Below are positions 46,428 to 59,792 of a DNA stretch of 64,000 nt, piece after piece. The position numbers and the translations under genes are program-made. Position 1 is the stretch's first letter. Each line of letters opens with the position of its first letter. Under the pieces are notes generated by a model, which ran no database searches, was not told the origin of the DNA, and was given only the letters and a program-made list of their open reading frames with translations. The stretch spans positions 1 to 64,000 of the forward strand of contig JACMQL010000011.1 in NCBI GenBank assembly GCA_014377015.1, written 5' to 3'. The stretch comes from Actinomycetota bacterium. GTDB lineage: Bacteria; Actinomycetota; Actinomycetes; Nanopelagicales; Nanopelagicaceae.

Positions 46428-48929
46428 TTAAACGGTTGGTGTTTCCGTAAGGTCGCTTGGAGTATCTGGCAGCAGAGCTTTTGGAGTTCCTGCAAAAGTG
46501 AACTTGGCATCAGCGCCTTCGCCTTCGACATCAACAACGATGATTTCGCCGGCTTTGAGTTCTCCGAAAAGAATCTTCTCAGAAAGTCCGTCTTCGATCT
46601 CGCGTTGAATCGTACGGCGTAACGGACGCGCTCCGAGCAACGGGTCATAACCACGAGTCGCAAGAAGTTCTTTAGCGGTTGCAGTTAGTTCGATTCCCAT
46701 GTCCTTGGCGCGCAAACGCTCATCCAAGTTAGCAATCATTAGATCAACAATTTGAATGATTTCAGGCTTGGTAAGTTGATGGAAGACGATGATGTCATCA
46801 ATACGGTTAAGGAACTCCGGACGGAAGTGAGTCTTGAGTTCGTCTCCAACCTTTGCCTTCATGCGTTCGTAATTGCTCATCTCATCTGCAGAGTTTGCAA
46901 ATCCAAGACCAGCACCCTTAGAAATATCACGAGTTCCTAGGTTGGTTGTCATGATAATGATGGTGTTCTTGAAATCAACAGCGCGACCTTGTGAGTCAGT
47001 GAGGCGACCGTCTTCCAAAACTTGCAATAACGAGTTAAAGATATCCGGGTGCGCTTTTTCAATTTCATCGAAGAGGACAACCGAGAATGGACGGCGACGA
47101 ACCTTCTCAGTGAGTTGTCCACCCTCGTCATATCCGACATATCCGGGAGGGGCACCAAAGAGACGTGAAGCAGTGTGGCGCTCGGAGTATTCCGACATAT
47201 CCAACTGGATAAGTGCGTCGGCATCACCGAAGAGGAACGCGGCGAGTGTGCGAGACAACTCCGTCTTTCCTACACCGGATGGACCAGCGAAAATGAACGA
47301 GCCACCAGGGCGCTTTGGATCTTTCAAGCCAGCGCGCGTGCGACGAATAGCCTGTGAAAGAGCCTTAATTGCTTGATCCTGACCAATAACTCGGCGGTGG
47401 AGTTCATCCTCCATGCGCAAAAGTCGGGCAGTCTCTTCTTCAGTCAACTTGAATACCGGAATTCCGGTCGCAGTGGAGAGAACTTCGGCAATAAGTTCTT
47501 CATCAACTTCGGTGACCATATCAAGGTCGCCGGCCTTCCATTCCTTTTCGCGCTCGTGCTTCTCAGTGATCAATTGCTTTTCAGTGTCGCGAAGTCCAGC
47601 TGCCTTTTCGAAATCTTGCGAGTCAATTGCAGACTCTTTGTCGCGGCGCACATTGGCGATCTTCTCGTCATATGCACGCAACTCTGGAGGTGCAGTCATG
47701 CGACGAATGCGAAGTCGTGATCCTGCTTCGTCAATCAGGTCAATTGCCTTGTCCGGCAAGAAACGATCGGAGACATAACGATCTGCAAGTGTTGCGGCCG
47801 CAACGAGTGCCGCATCAGAAATCGATACCCGGTGATGTGTTTCGTAACGATCGCGCAGACCTTTGAGAATTTCGATGGTGTGAGCAAGAGTGGGCTCAGC
47901 AACTTGAATAGGTTGGAATCGGCGCTCGAGAGCAGCATCCTTTTCGAGATGCTTGCGATACTCATCAAGTGTGGTGGCTCCGATTGTCTGAAGTTCGCCA
48001 CGCGCGAGCATCGGCTTCAAAATGCTTGCTGCGTCAATTGCACCTTCAGCTGCACCCGCACCGACGAGGGTATGAATCTCATCAATGAAAAGAATGATGT
48101 CGCCGCGTGTACGGATCTCTTTAAGAACTTTCTTCAAGCGCTCTTCGAAATCTCCGCGGTAGCGACTACCTGCGACGAGTGCACCAAGATCGAGAGAGTA
48201 CAACTGCTTGTCTTTGAGAGTCTCTGGAACATCGCCCTTGACGATTGCTTGTGCCAGACCTTCGACTACGGCTGTTTTACCAACGCCGGGCTCGCCGATC
48301 AAAACTGGATTATTTTTAGTACGACGCGAAAGAATCTGCATCACGCGCTCGATCTCTTTCTCACGACCGATCACCGGATCAAGTTTGCCTTCGCGAGCGG
48401 CTTGCGTGAGATTGCGGCCGAATTGATCAAGCACCAAAGAAGTAGAAGGTGTGCCCTCGGCTGGACCGCCAGATGCGACGGTCTCTTTTCCTTGATATCC
48501 CGAAAGCAATTGGATTACTTGCTGACGTACCCGCGCCAAATCTGCGCCGAGTTTAATAAGAACCTGCGCCGCTACGCCTTCACCCTCGCGGATGAGGCCG
48601 AGAAGAATGTGCTCTGTACCGATGTAGTTGTGGCCGAGTTGAAGCGCTTCACGAAGTGAGAGTTCAAGAACCTTTTTGGCGCGGGGAGTAAATGGAATAT
48701 GTCCACTGGGGGCTTGCTGTCCTTGGCCGATGATCTCCTCAACCTGCGAGCGGACTGCCTCGAGGGAGATTGAAAGGGATTCCAGAGCCTTGGCGGCGAC
48801 GCCTTCGCCCTCATGGATGAGCCCAAGCAGGATGTGCTCGGTACCGATGTAGTTGTGGTTGAGCATGCGTGCTTCTTCTTGAGCCAGCACCACAACTCGT
48901 CTTGCCCTATCGGTAAAGCGCTCGAACAT
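46428..48929 (-). CDS. clpC: ATP-dependent Clp protease ATPase subunit ClpC
   Basis: This is an 833-residue AAA+ unfoldase. Two N-terminal Clp repeats (residues 1-145) each contain an [18 protein letters not shown] signature. The first ATPase has [13 protein letters not shown] (about residue 211), a UVR-like linker lies in the middle, and the second ATPase has [14 protein letters not shown] (about 540). The C-terminal domain carries [13 protein letters not shown]. ClpC delivers unfolded proteins to ClpP and is important for stress response and proteostasis. AGGAG lies before the ATG. The promoter region contains a -10 inside an inverted repeat. Confidence 0.96.
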
Positions 48930-48959
48930 TGAGTCTCCTCTGTTTTCCTTAACTTCAAC

Positions 48960-49020
48960 ATCTCCAAGCCTAACGGTCTGGAGATAAAGAGGCTAAATCT
49001 CGGTTATGACTTTTATAACC
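48960..49020 (-). promoter_or_regulatory. clpC promoter with two inverted repeats
   Basis: The clpC -10 candidate TAGGCT is at 48972-48967, leaving a leader of about 30 bases with AGGAG. It lies inside the spacer of the inverted repeat ATCTCCA (48960-48966) and TGGAGAT (48979-48985). About 40 bases further upstream a second inverted repeat, GGTTAT (49002-49007) and ATAACC (49015-49020), is separated by 7 bases. The first could be a repressor operator or a leader hairpin, the second an activator site. No known consensus is matched with confidence. Confidence 0.4.
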
Positions 49021-49055
49021 CCGAAGAGGTGGCATTTATGCCCACGAATTAATCT

Positions 49056-49170
49056 TTACAAGTATTTCAGCCATTCCGTCGTGCTGAATTACAGGTATTT
49101 CAGCCATTCCGTCGTGCTGAATTACAAGTATTTCAGCCATTCCGTCGTGCTGAATTACAAGTATTTCAGC
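49056..49170 (-). repeat. Tandem 33-base hairpin repeats at the 3' end of the argA-like gene
   Basis: Three full 33-base units lie at 49056-49088, 49089-49121 and 49122-49154; they differ at one base. A fourth partial unit of 16 bases (49155-49170) is the end of the upstream coding sequence. Each unit contains the arms GTATTTCAGC and GCTGAATTAC, which pair over ten positions with one mismatch around an 11-base loop. In the argA frame each unit reads FSTTEWLKYL followed by a stop, so the stop codon is repeated in phase. The array fills most of the gap to the clpC promoter. Confidence 0.9.
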
Positions 49171-49649
49171 ATGCGAGTATTGCCCAAAGTGTTCGGCTTC
49201 ACACTTTCCAAGTCCAGGAACTCAGCAATACCTGTGTCGTATGAATGGAGTAACTGGCTGTAAACCTCAGGATCGACGGGGGTTCCCTCGATCGCCTCAA
49301 AACCGTTGCGTCCGAAGAAATCCGTCTCAAAGGTGAGGCAAAAGATGCGCTCCACACCCAGACTCTTAGCTCGTTCCACGACCGCGGTGAGCAGACGCTC
49401 GCCGATCCCGTGTCGGCGCAACCGTTCTGAAACAGCAACGGTGCGGACTTCGGCCAGATCCTCCCAGAGCACGTGCAGACCAGCACAGCCGACGACTTCC
49501 TCACCATCGACAGCGACAATGAATTCTTGGACGCTCTCGTAGAGAGTCACTGTCTCTTTAGAAAGCAGGCGACGTTGCAAGGCATAACTATCGATGAGTT
49601 TGCGAATCCCTTTAATGTCGCTAGTACGCGCGGCACGAATCTCGATCAT
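49155..49649 (-). CDS. argA: Short-form N-acetylglutamate synthase (GNAT family)
   Basis: This is a 164-residue acetyltransferase of the Rv2747 type, which acetylates glutamate to start arginine synthesis. The GNAT acetyl-CoA loop is visible in VSERLRRHGIGERLL and the fold starts EIRAARTSDIKGIRKLIDSY. LHVLWEDLAEVRTVAV holds the beta-4 strand. The start is one base after the lysS stop. The last codons, LKYL and a stop, are also the first part of the downstream repeat array. Being in the lysS operon is unusual for an arginine gene but is consistent with shared translation-related expression. Confidence 0.85.
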   Translation of the reverse strand: MIEIRAARTSDIKGIRKLIDSYALQRRLLSKETVTLYESVQEFIVAVDGEEVVGCAGLHVLWEDLAEVRTVAVSERLRRHGIGERLLTAVVERAKSLGVERIFCLTFETDFFGRNGFEAIEGTPVDPEVYSQLLHSYDTGIAEFLDLESVKPNTLGNTRMLKYL

Positions 49650-49650
49650 G

Positions 49651-51171
49651 CTAATCCGATTCTGGTTTCACGAGTGGGAAAAGAATGGTCTCGCGGATTC
49701 CAAGTCCAGTCAGCGCCATGAGGAGTCGATCAACACCCATACCAAGGCCTCCCATCGGAGGCATCCCGTATTCCATAGCGCGCAAGAAATCTTCGTCGAC
49801 ATTCATAGCTTCAACATCGCCCTTTGCGCTGAGTCGCCCTTGTTCAACTAGACGTTCGCGTTGGATCACCGGGTCGATCAACTCTGAGTAGCCAGTAGCC
49901 AATTCAAAGCCGTCGACATACAAATCCCACTTTTCAACAACGCCAGAAATTGTGCGATGCTCACGAACAAGTGGTGCGTTGTCAATCGGGAATCCCATAA
50001 CGAAAGTGGGTTCGTTCAATTTTCCTTCAGTGACATGTTCAAATATCTCCTCGGCAAGTTTACCCGTGATCCAATTTGGATCGATCTTCATTCCTATGTT
50101 CACGGCAATTTTCTTCAACTCCGCAATCGGGGTCAAAGCAGTAACACTCTCGCCGACACCTTCAGAAATCGCGTCGTAAAGAGAAATCTCTTTCCACGTT
50201 CCGCCGAGATCTGAAACACGACCGTCGTGATGAGTAACTTTGGTCGAGCCGAAAATACTCATCGCACTTTCTTGTACCAATGCTCGCGCGAGGTCGGCCG
50301 TTGTGCGCCAATCACCGTAAGCCTCATAACTTTCAATCATTGCAAACTCAGGTGAGTGACTGGAATCTGCACCTTCGTTGCGGAAATTGCGATTAATCTC
50401 AAAGACTCGTTCGATGCCACCGACAACGCAACGTTTGAGAAAAAGTTCTGGCGCGATACGCAAAAAGAGATCCATGTCGTATGCATTGCTGCGAGTCTTG
50501 AAAGGACGTGCCGCTGCTCCCCCCGGTTGCACTTGCAGCATCGGAGTCTCAACTTCGAGGTAATCGCGCGCCTGGAAAGTCTGACGCAGCGAGCGCATAA
50601 CCGCCGGACGAAGGCGGGCGTTGAAACGCGCCTCTGGGCGCACGATTAGGTCCACATAACGCATGCGGACGCGGGTTTCCTCCGACATCGGCTTGTGGTC
50701 ATTTGGCAACGGACGAAGGGATTTTGCCGCTAGCGCCCAGGTGTTGGCCAAAATGGAAAGTTCGCCGCGCTTTGAGGTGATGATCTCCCCCGTCACGCTG
50801 ACGATGTCACCTAGATCGATTTCGCTCTTCCAGGAATTAAGTGAGTCTTCTCCAACTTTATCGAGAGAGAACATCGCCTGCAGTTCAGTTCCATCACCTT
50901 CGCGCAAAGTTGCAAAACAAAGTTTGCCCGTATCGCGTTTAAAAATAATACGACCAGTAACACTCTCAATATCACCGGTCGCGGTATCGATTGGTAACTC
51001 TATATAAGTAGCGCGAATCTGCGCCAAAGACTTTGTACGAGAAACACTTACTGGATAAGGCTCAACACCTTTTGCGATGAGCTCCGATCGCTTTTCGCGG
51101 CGGATACGCAACTGCTCGGGAAGATCATCCTCGATTGCAGTGGCAGGGCTATTTGGCGGAGTCTGTGTCAT
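49651..51171 (-). CDS. lysS: Lysyl-tRNA synthetase, class II
   Basis: This is a 506-residue class II aminoacyl-tRNA synthetase. The N-terminal anticodon-binding OB fold (VTGRIIFKRDTGKLCFATL) is followed by motif 2 FRNEGADSSHSPEFAMIE and motif 3 GGLGMGVDRLLMAL. The length and order are normal for LysS and it lacks the membrane domain of mycobacterial LysX. It is expressed with the NAD and CoA genes upstream (20 bases from coaX) and the argA-like gene downstream. Confidence 0.96.
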   Translation of the reverse strand: MTQTPPNSPATAIEDDLPEQLRIRREKRSELIAKGVEPYPVSVSRTKSLAQIRATYIELPIDTATGDIESVTGRIIFKRDTGKLCFATLREGDGTELQAMFSLDKVGEDSLNSWKSEIDLGDIVSVTGEIITSKRGELSILANTWALAAKSLRPLPNDHKPMSEETRVRMRYVDLIVRPEARFNARLRPAVMRSLRQTFQARDYLEVETPMLQVQPGGAAARPFKTRSNAYDMDLFLRIAPELFLKRCVVGGIERVFEINRNFRNEGADSSHSPEFAMIESYEAYGDWRTTADLARALVQESAMSIFGSTKVTHHDGRVSDLGGTWKEISLYDAISEGVGESVTALTPIAELKKIAVNIGMKIDPNWITGKLAEEIFEHVTEGKLNEPTFVMGFPIDNAPLVREHRTISGVVEKWDLYVDGFELATGYSELIDPVIQRERLVEQGRLSAKGDVEAMNVDEDFLRAMEYGMPPMGGLGMGVDRLLMALTGLGIRETILFPLVKPESD

Positions 51172-56977: not shown

Positions 56978-57649
56978 TTACTTATTTGTGATCAGGCTTA
57001 TGGCTTCGGCTCGCGTTGCAGAATCTCGCAAGATTCCTCGCACCGCACTTGTAACAGTCTTCGCGCCAGCTTTGCGCACTCCGCGCATAGACATGCAGAG
57101 ATGTTCGCATTCGATGATGACAATCACGCCGGCTGGTTTCAAAATATCGATTAGTGCATCAGCGATTTGGCTTGTTAACCGTTCTTGCACTTGCGGACGG
57201 CGCGCGTACACATCAACCAATCGTGCAATCTTCGACAAGCCAGTAATTTTTCCCGACGGGATATATCCGACATGGGCAACACCATGAAACGGAGTCAAGT
57301 GATGTTCGCAGTGAGAAAAGACCTCTATGTCTTTCACAATGACGAGTTCTTCATGACCAATATCAAATGTCGTGGCGAGTACTTCCTGTGGCGTTTGCCA
57401 TAACCCGGCAAAATTTTCGGCAAGTGCACGGGCAACACGCGCCGGAGTATCACGTAAACCTTCGCGATCTGGATTCTCGCCTAGTGCAAGCAGGAGTTCG
57501 CGGACGGCTCGTTCAGCGCGTTCGGGATCGTAAGGACGGTCAGCGCGACCATCCTCGGGTCCCATCGTCACGGGGTTGATGGTCACGGGGTTGATGGTCA
57601 CGGGGTTGATGGTCACGGGGTTGATGGTCACTGGGCTGATGTCAGTCAC
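56978..57649 (-). CDS. folE: GTP cyclohydrolase I with repeat-encoded N-terminus
   Basis: This enzyme has a core of about 195 residues that makes dihydroneopterin triphosphate from GTP. The zinc and active-site segments are [19 protein letters not shown] and [19 protein letters not shown]. The core begins at the ATG at 57565 ([18 protein letters not shown]). Upstream in frame, from a GTG at 57649 that overlaps the ftsH stop and has GGAAG 9 bases before it, lie 28 codons made of repeats of INPVT. I annotated the longer form because no ribosome site precedes the ATG, but the ATG may be the true start. Extension to 57772 would run into ftsH and is not supported. Confidence 0.88.
57567..57641 (-). 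repeat. 15-base tandem repeat between ftsH and folE
   Basis: Four perfect copies of a 15-base unit (GTCACGGGGTTGATG on the plus strand) cover 57567-57626, with a fifth copy carrying two mismatches at 57627-57641. The array starts one base after the folE ATG complement and ends exactly before the ftsH stop codon. In the folE frame it encodes NPVTI five times with no stop. Confidence 0.92.
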
Positions 57650-59792
57650 TAGCAGGTTTCTTCCGCGCAGCCCGCTTGACCGGTTTCTTTGTCGGCTTGT
57701 CTTCAACCTCGCCTGGTTCGGCTGTCGGCTTGTCTTCAACCTCGCCTGGTTCGGCTGTCGGCTTATCTTCAACCTCGCCTGGTTCGGCTGCCGGCTTGTC
57801 TTCTTCGACGATCTTGCCGTTGCTCAACGCAGGACGCGTCGCAATCGGTGGAATGTCGGAAGGCGCGCGAGTTGTCGAACCAGTCCAGGCCGGACGAGGA
57901 GGCCATGGGGTGACCTTCGCAAAAATTTCCGCGATCTCTTCTTTATTGAGGGTTTCGCGCTCCAAAAGTTGAACAACCATCTCATCGAGGATGTTGCGGT
58001 TTTGCACCAAAATATCGAAAGCCTCTTGATGAGCGTTCTCGATCAGCGAACGGATTTCCGAATCTACAATTGCCGCAACGCTCTCGGAGAAGTCGCGCAT
58101 ATGTCCGTAATCGCGGCCCATGAAAGGCTCTGAAGAATCAGTACCCAGTTTCACTGCGCCAAGGGCGGCGGTCATTCCATATTGCGTGACCATTGCCTTA
58201 GCCAGTGCGGTAGCTTTTTCGATGTCATTGCTTGCCCCAGTTGAAGGATCGTGGAAGATCAACTCTTCAGCTGCTCGGCCTCCCAGCGAATAAGAAAGTT
58301 GATCGAGTAGTTGATTTCGAGTTACTGAATACTTGTCCTCGTCAGGTAAGACCATCGTGTAACCAAGGGCACGACCGCGTGGCATGATCGTGATCTTGTG
58401 AACTGGATCTGTATGCGGCAACGCATACGCGACAAGTGCGTGACCCGCCTCATGGTAAGCAGTGACCCGTCGTTCGGCTTCACTCATTAAACGACTCTTG
58501 CGTTGCGGACCAGCCATCACACGATCAATGGCTTCGTCGAGTTCGCTATCTGAAATCTCAGTCTTGTTCTCACGTGCCGTGAGGAGTGCCGCTTCATTGA
58601 GCACGTTCGCTAAATCTGCACCCGTGAATCCTGGGGTACGTCGGGCGTAGGTAAGTAGTTCGACATCCTTACTGATCGGTTTACCCTTTGCATGAACGGC
58701 AAGAATTTGTTCGCGTCCCTTTAGGTCTGGGCGTTCAATAGGAATCTGTCGATCAAAGCGACCAGGACGCAAAAGCGCCGGATCCAAAATATCTGGTCGG
58801 TTAGTTGCGGCGATAAGAATTACGGAGCCGTTAGATTCGAAGCCGTCCATCTCAACAAGAAGTTGGTTGAGAGTCTGCTCACGCTCATCATGTCCTCCAC
58901 CCATTCCTGCACCGCGCTGGCGACCGACTGCATCGATTTCATCAACGAAGACAATTGCCGGGGCGTTCTCTCTGGCTTGATTGAAAAGATCGCGCACACG
59001 CGCAGCACCGACCCCCACAAACATTTCAACAAAGTCAGATCCGGAAATTGAATAGAAAGGTACATTCGCTTCGCCCGCAACCGCGCGCGCCAAGAGAGTC
59101 TTGCCTGTACCTGGAGGACCGTAAAGCAAGACGCCTTTGGGAATCTTTGCCCCGAGTGCCTGGTACTTGGGTGGGTTGGCGAGAAAATCCTTGATTTCAG
59201 CTAGTTCTTGAATAGCTTCATCAGCACCGGCTACATCAGCAAAAGTGGTTTTAGGAACATCATTGCTCTGCAGTTTTGCACGCGAACGCCCGAAGGAGAA
59301 TGCGCGATTGCCGCCCTGCGCCTGACTCATCATGAAGAAGAAGAGGAACCCGATGAGAAGAATTGGCGCTAAAGAGAATAGGAAAGTTACGAATAAAGAT
59401 TGTGAGGCTACGCGGACGGACCACGATCCCGGAGGTGGATTGCTGGTCAACAAGTCAACGAGAGTCGGCTCCTGACCTTTGATGTAAGAAGCCTCGACTT
59501 TGTTCGCACCGTTGATCAAATTGCCAGTTTTGAGAATAAGTTGAATTTTTTGATCTCTATCAACCAGTACCGCAGATTGAACTTCACCTTTTGAAATCGC
59601 AGCAAGAATCTCCGAGGTCTTTGCTTGCGTGTATTTATTGTTGGCGCTGGAAATCTGCCCAAACAGGGTAACGCCAATAATCGCAGCAACAATCCAGAAG
59701 AGCGGACCGCGTAGAATTTTCTGCGTACGCGTTGTCGGCGGCTTGCGCGGTTCCTTCTTCTTTGACTTCTTTGGAGATTTCATTTCAGCCAT
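57642..59792 (-). CDS. ftsH: ATP-dependent zinc metalloprotease FtsH
   Basis: This is a 716-residue membrane AAA+ protease. Two transmembrane helices are at about residues 31-48 and 133-153. The Walker A site GPPGTGKT is at 225-232, and the second region of homology [19 protein letters not shown] is at 331-349. The zinc site HEAGH is at 447-451 with a downstream [13 protein letters not shown]. The last 50 residues carry an acidic, proline-rich repeat ([11 protein letters not shown]) ending in a basic [11 protein letters not shown], probably a flexible cytoplasmic tail. It degrades membrane and some soluble proteins. Confidence 0.96.
57691..57803 (-). repeat. 33-base in-frame repeat in the ftsH 3' end
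   Basis: Three 33-base copies lie at 57691-57723, 57724-57756 and 57757-57789, with a partial fourth copy to about 57803. They encode 11-residue units [11 protein letters not shown] in the FtsH tail (about residues 668-701). Copies differ by one base, so the expansion is recent. Confidence 0.9.

Follow-up and report, generated by a model that had tools for sequence, protein, structure and literature searches.

A gene-end tandem repeat between an argA-like gene and clpC in a Nanopelagicaceae genome looks like a local minisatellite

The locus between lysS and clpC

The window, that is, the whole stretch of 64,000 nucleotides analysed here, carries a tandem array at 49056..49170 (minus strand, in gene direction). 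The array overlaps the 3′ end of an argA-like amino-acid N-acetyltransferase gene of the GNAT type (49155..49649, minus strand), a label that an earlier sequence-only reading had given and that was upheld by NCBIfam NF005921 (258 bits, cut-off 180) and by Pfam GNAT; the stop codon of this gene (49155-49157) falls within the first array unit. Directly upstream of the acetyltransferase gene lies lysS, encoding lysine-tRNA ligase (49651..51171, minus strand; TIGR00499, 452 bits, cut-off 427.6), and the next gene downstream of the array is clpC, encoding a Clp ATPase (ORF at 46428..48929, minus strand; ClpA/ClpB-type family matches). The acetyltransferase–clpC gene pair is kept over most of the family. 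The array had been described as separating the lysS operon from clpC, and it does lie between them; in most relatives, however, these genes are set apart with no array between them.

Upstream of clpC, a conserved stress-type (ECF sigma) promoter-like motif, GGCAT-N18-GTT, was found at 49014..49042 (minus strand), 13 bp from the array edge. The pattern GG[AC]AT-N18-GTT, mostly in the form GGCAT, precedes clpC in 80 of 84 distinct intergenic regions, versus 0.65% of shuffled sequences. It resembles the sigma H/E promoters of Corynebacterium (GGAAT or GGAAC, N17-19, GTT; PMC10012870), a genus in which clpC is reported to be under sigma E control, but differs in that GGCAT and not GGAAT is the common form here, so we infer the sigma factor assignment. 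Nearer to clpC, TTAGGCT at 48967..48973 (minus strand), matched as TTAGGCT or GTAGGCT by 77 of the clpC-containing regions retrieved, is by inference likely the housekeeping -10 element. Of more use than the array itself is this motif, conserved family-wide ahead of clpC.

Structure of the array

Tandem Repeats Finder (TRF) returned a period of 33, 3.5 copies, 97% match and a score of 223 over 115 bp, confirming the 33-base tandem units noted after the argA-like gene. In gene direction, the full units occupy 49138-49170, 49105-49137 and 49072-49104, followed by a partial unit at 49056-49071, and the gene strand thus reads three times GCTGAAATAC[T/C]TGTAATTCAGCACGACGGAATG and then GCTGAAATACTTGTAA. 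The one T/C position is the sole difference inside the units, which argues against simple assembly stutter as the source of the array; its 115 bp would probably also fit within a single sequencing read. Near-identical units of roughly 10-100 bp arranged head to tail, as found here, are what defines a minisatellite or VNTR.

The array starts 13 nt ahead of the stop codon of the argA-like gene, so that unit 1 opens with 16 nt that belong to the gene, namely the final 13 coding nt plus the stop, and it ends 13 bp before the clpC promoter-like motif. Each unit is composed of the arm GCTGAA, the loop ATACTTGTAA holding the stop codon, the arm TTCAGC and the spacer ACGACGGAATG. For the 23-nt core, 0.00 chance matches were expected (100 shuffles). 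In the frame of the argA-like gene, the sequence after its stop codon reads FSTTEWLKYL and a stop three times, just as the sequence-only reading had it. The plus strand is also open through the array (ORF 49006-49263, 85 aa, with YKYFSHSVVLN repeats); a coding repeat on this strand was rejected, as the ORF had no family match and its openness was taken as chance.

Confinement of the unit to one locus

A pattern search allowing up to 3 mismatches matched the unit in its own genome only at the three copies of the array, and a DNA search of the same genome placed it at one site only. Among 296 family genomes searched with up to 3 mismatches, the own genome alone matched and the unit was absent from the other 295; viral contigs gave no exact match, and a looser spacer pattern (2 mismatches) showed no excess over the reversed control across the genus. 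The searches of the own genome, the family genomes and the viral contigs rule out a dispersed repeat. The occurrence at many unrelated loci that marks interspersed repeats of the REP/MIRU type, and that would have contradicted the local duplication proposed from the letters alone, was not seen.

Scanning roughly 1.69 Mb of the own genome gave 71 tandem arrays whose unit is 10 bp or longer. Most of these are coding, and among the non-coding ones the strongest is that at 49056-49170. When genes were taken simply as the longest ORFs, 488 gene ends of this genome were followed by a gap of 60 nt or more; 4 of them, the present one included, have a tandem repeat that touches the stop codon or begins immediately after it.

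The same locus in relatives

The relatives were sampled with one genome per species, and the copy-number comparison is accordingly one between species. At the same spot, three of the genus's 20 other members carry copies that are shorter or decayed, with periods of 37-38: G002 carries a gene-end repeat of 37 bp in 2.3 copies, and decayed repeats of 38 bp and 37 bp are present in G004 and G005, respectively. Copy number within the genus is about 3.5, 2.3 and, in two species, a decayed 1.3; the sequence-only reading had suggested that it could vary between strains. Two more distant species also have duplicated gene ends at this spot, one (L081) with a period of 38, the other (L091) with a period of 34 and from a different segment that begins 27 nt before the stop codon. 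Most of the relatives' intergenic regions that were retrieved are without a repeat, including that of L024 from the same subclade. A tree built from ClpC, LysS and the acetyltransferase, read without branch support, groups the own genome, G002 and G004 with the arrayless L024 and places G005 near this group and L081, L091 and G033 elsewhere. The last of these, from another genus, has an unrelated GGTGAGCGGCGAGTCCCCTCAC hairpin array with 33- and 24-bp units just after its acetyltransferase gene (locus L029).

The downstream copies are similar to the gene end of their own host (AAATACTTG in the own genome, AAAATTCTC in G002). Only the spacer, AGCACGA..GGAATGGCT, is shared, being common to the own genome, G002 and, in part, G004. 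A shared spacer combined with arms that copy the host's own gene end suggests that this branch has probably had the hairpin-plus-arm arrangement for a long time and that it was repeatedly re-copied or converted within single lineages. Separate gene-end duplications probably occurred in at least two other lineages.

Hairpins and terminator features

The sequence-only reading had each unit fold as a 10-position imperfect hairpin. The inverted repeat is present, but the arms (GCTGAA/TTCAGC) are of 6 bp, and the loop is either 10 nt with the stop codon inside or, when an arm pairs with the neighbouring unit, 11 nt (ACGACGGAATG). Within the array, an arm has a partner on both sides, and both hairpins are possible. 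A single hairpin is weak (about -4.8 kcal/mol). The whole array folds better than shuffled sequences (z = -3.96), in part because the repeats pair mutually, as repeated inverted repeats tend to.

The GC-rich stem followed by a T run that characterizes an intrinsic terminator was found nowhere in 48900-49300 (0 sites, no stem with a T run), and an Rfam search of 48800-49800 gave no match at E values up to 1. With the expected features lacking, the stacked transcription roadblocks proposed earlier are unproven as terminators. The stop-spanning hairpin is present in the own genome, G002, G004 and G005, and one arm pair has changed on both sides, between C-G and G-C; this is a single event and no more than suggestive. 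Over 108 loci, stems formed between the gene end and the downstream sequence were not longer than those formed with swapped partners, and a general gene-end hairpin in the family was rejected on this ground.

A probable gene-end minisatellite and its alternatives

The repeat derives from the gene end, is confined to a single locus and differs in copy number and state between species. We consider it to be a locally generated intergenic minisatellite that arose from the gene end and a small inverted repeat, with a probability of roughly two in three (about 0.68), and it has the look of such a repeat more than of a novel genetic device. The duplicated stretch would comprise the last 16 nt of the gene with its stop codon, the 3′ arm that completes the hairpin and the 11 nt of the spacer. 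The tandem duplication probably arose by slippage during replication, which the inverted repeat would have favoured, and expansion or homogenisation may have followed inside each lineage, the array being probably near-neutral. The earlier proposal of a local duplication of the gene 3′ end together with its hairpin is thus borne out by the undispersed unit and by the copy number that varies between species. As a function the array is of little importance; it is a small, clear case of a gene 3′ end seeding a tandem repeat, whose amplified, short, decayed and absent stages are visible among relatives, and it could act as a typing locus for its own lineage of uncultured freshwater actinobacteria.

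The nearest precedent is the intergenic VNTR/MIRU loci of Mycobacterium, such as VNTR3239 between rnc and fpg1 (PMC2734929), which are likewise tandem repeats of tens of bp in an actinobacterial gene gap, beside the start of a downstream gene and with lineage-variable copy number. In contrast to MIRUs, which are dispersed over many loci, the unit described here is found at one locus only and stems from the 3′ end of the adjoining gene, and unlike in the Mycobacterium VNTRs its copy-number differences are between species. It shares with REP, BIME and ERIC elements a short palindromic repeat in an intergenic gap, but these are not confined to one locus. As in tandem or single intrinsic terminators, hairpins lie just past a gene, yet the array has no T run, a weak stem and poor conservation across relatives. 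A literature search on minisatellites at stop codons yielded mostly eukaryotic work.

Two observations stand against the minisatellite reading. On the one hand, the shared spacer and the two-sided arm change could mean selection on the hairpin. On the other hand, gene-end duplication recurs in the own clade, L081 and L091 although only 4 of 488 own gene ends with a gap show a tandem repeat at the stop, which suggests that the spot may be special, in a sample that is small and at a locus picked because it bears an array. The hairpin could be a selected 3′-end element of the lysS-argA transcript, either a terminator or an RNA-stabilising stem, strengthened by its tandem copies. We regard this as unlikely, though the foremost of the alternatives: the stop-spanning hairpin of four genomes with its compensatory arm change and the folding of the array beyond shuffles speak for it, whereas the missing T tract and terminator-like site, the weak single stem of the own genome and the swapped-partner result, by which the stem is not a conserved feature of the acetyltransferase gene, speak against it.

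Since its position is within the 3′ UTR and 13 bp ahead of the stress-type clpC motif, the array may mildly influence mRNA 3′ ends or clpC output. That it is an upstream cis-element tuning clpC, through binding sites or the spacing of the stress promoter and with copy number changing the output, seems improbable to us. Such a role would fit the closeness of the array to a motif kept in 80 of 84 relatives, and upstream of fpg1 in M. tuberculosis longer repeats of VNTR3239 went with higher expression (PMC2734929); nevertheless, most relatives retain the promoter motif without an array, and the unit spacing varies (33, 37, 38). A comparably long shot combines both ideas. In it, the stop-spanning hairpin of the argA-like gene would be a maintained regulatory element in one Nanopelagicaceae branch; repeated re-copying would hold its copies to the exact sequence of the host's own gene end, and the number of units would tune the border at which the lysS-argA transcript meets the clpC stress promoter.

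Least credible, and in our view very nearly negligible, is read-through of the stops with a stepwise FSTTEWLKYL extension of the acetyltransferase. The period does equal 11 codons in the own genome and an in-phase stop ends each unit there, as the sequence-only reading had stated. The other carriers, however, have periods of 34, 37 and 38, which are not multiples of three and put the stops out of phase, so the 11-codon coincidence is private to the own genome and read-through is unsupported. A programmed read-through repeat would be a multiple of three with its phase kept in relatives; here, the phase is broken, the peptide is not repeated in the frames of the other carriers, and the protein end is conserved as MLKxL-stop in most relatives.

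Other tandem repeats in the genome

A second 33-bp array of 3.5 copies lies in the window at 57690-57803, in frame within the C-terminal tail of an FtsH-like protease. At 57567-57641, between ftsH and the next gene, a 15-bp repeat in 5 copies (VTINP) probably extends the N terminus of that next gene. On another contig of the own genome (C7; L143, 11722-11771), a 13-bp unit is repeated 3.8 times over the stop codon of another gene.
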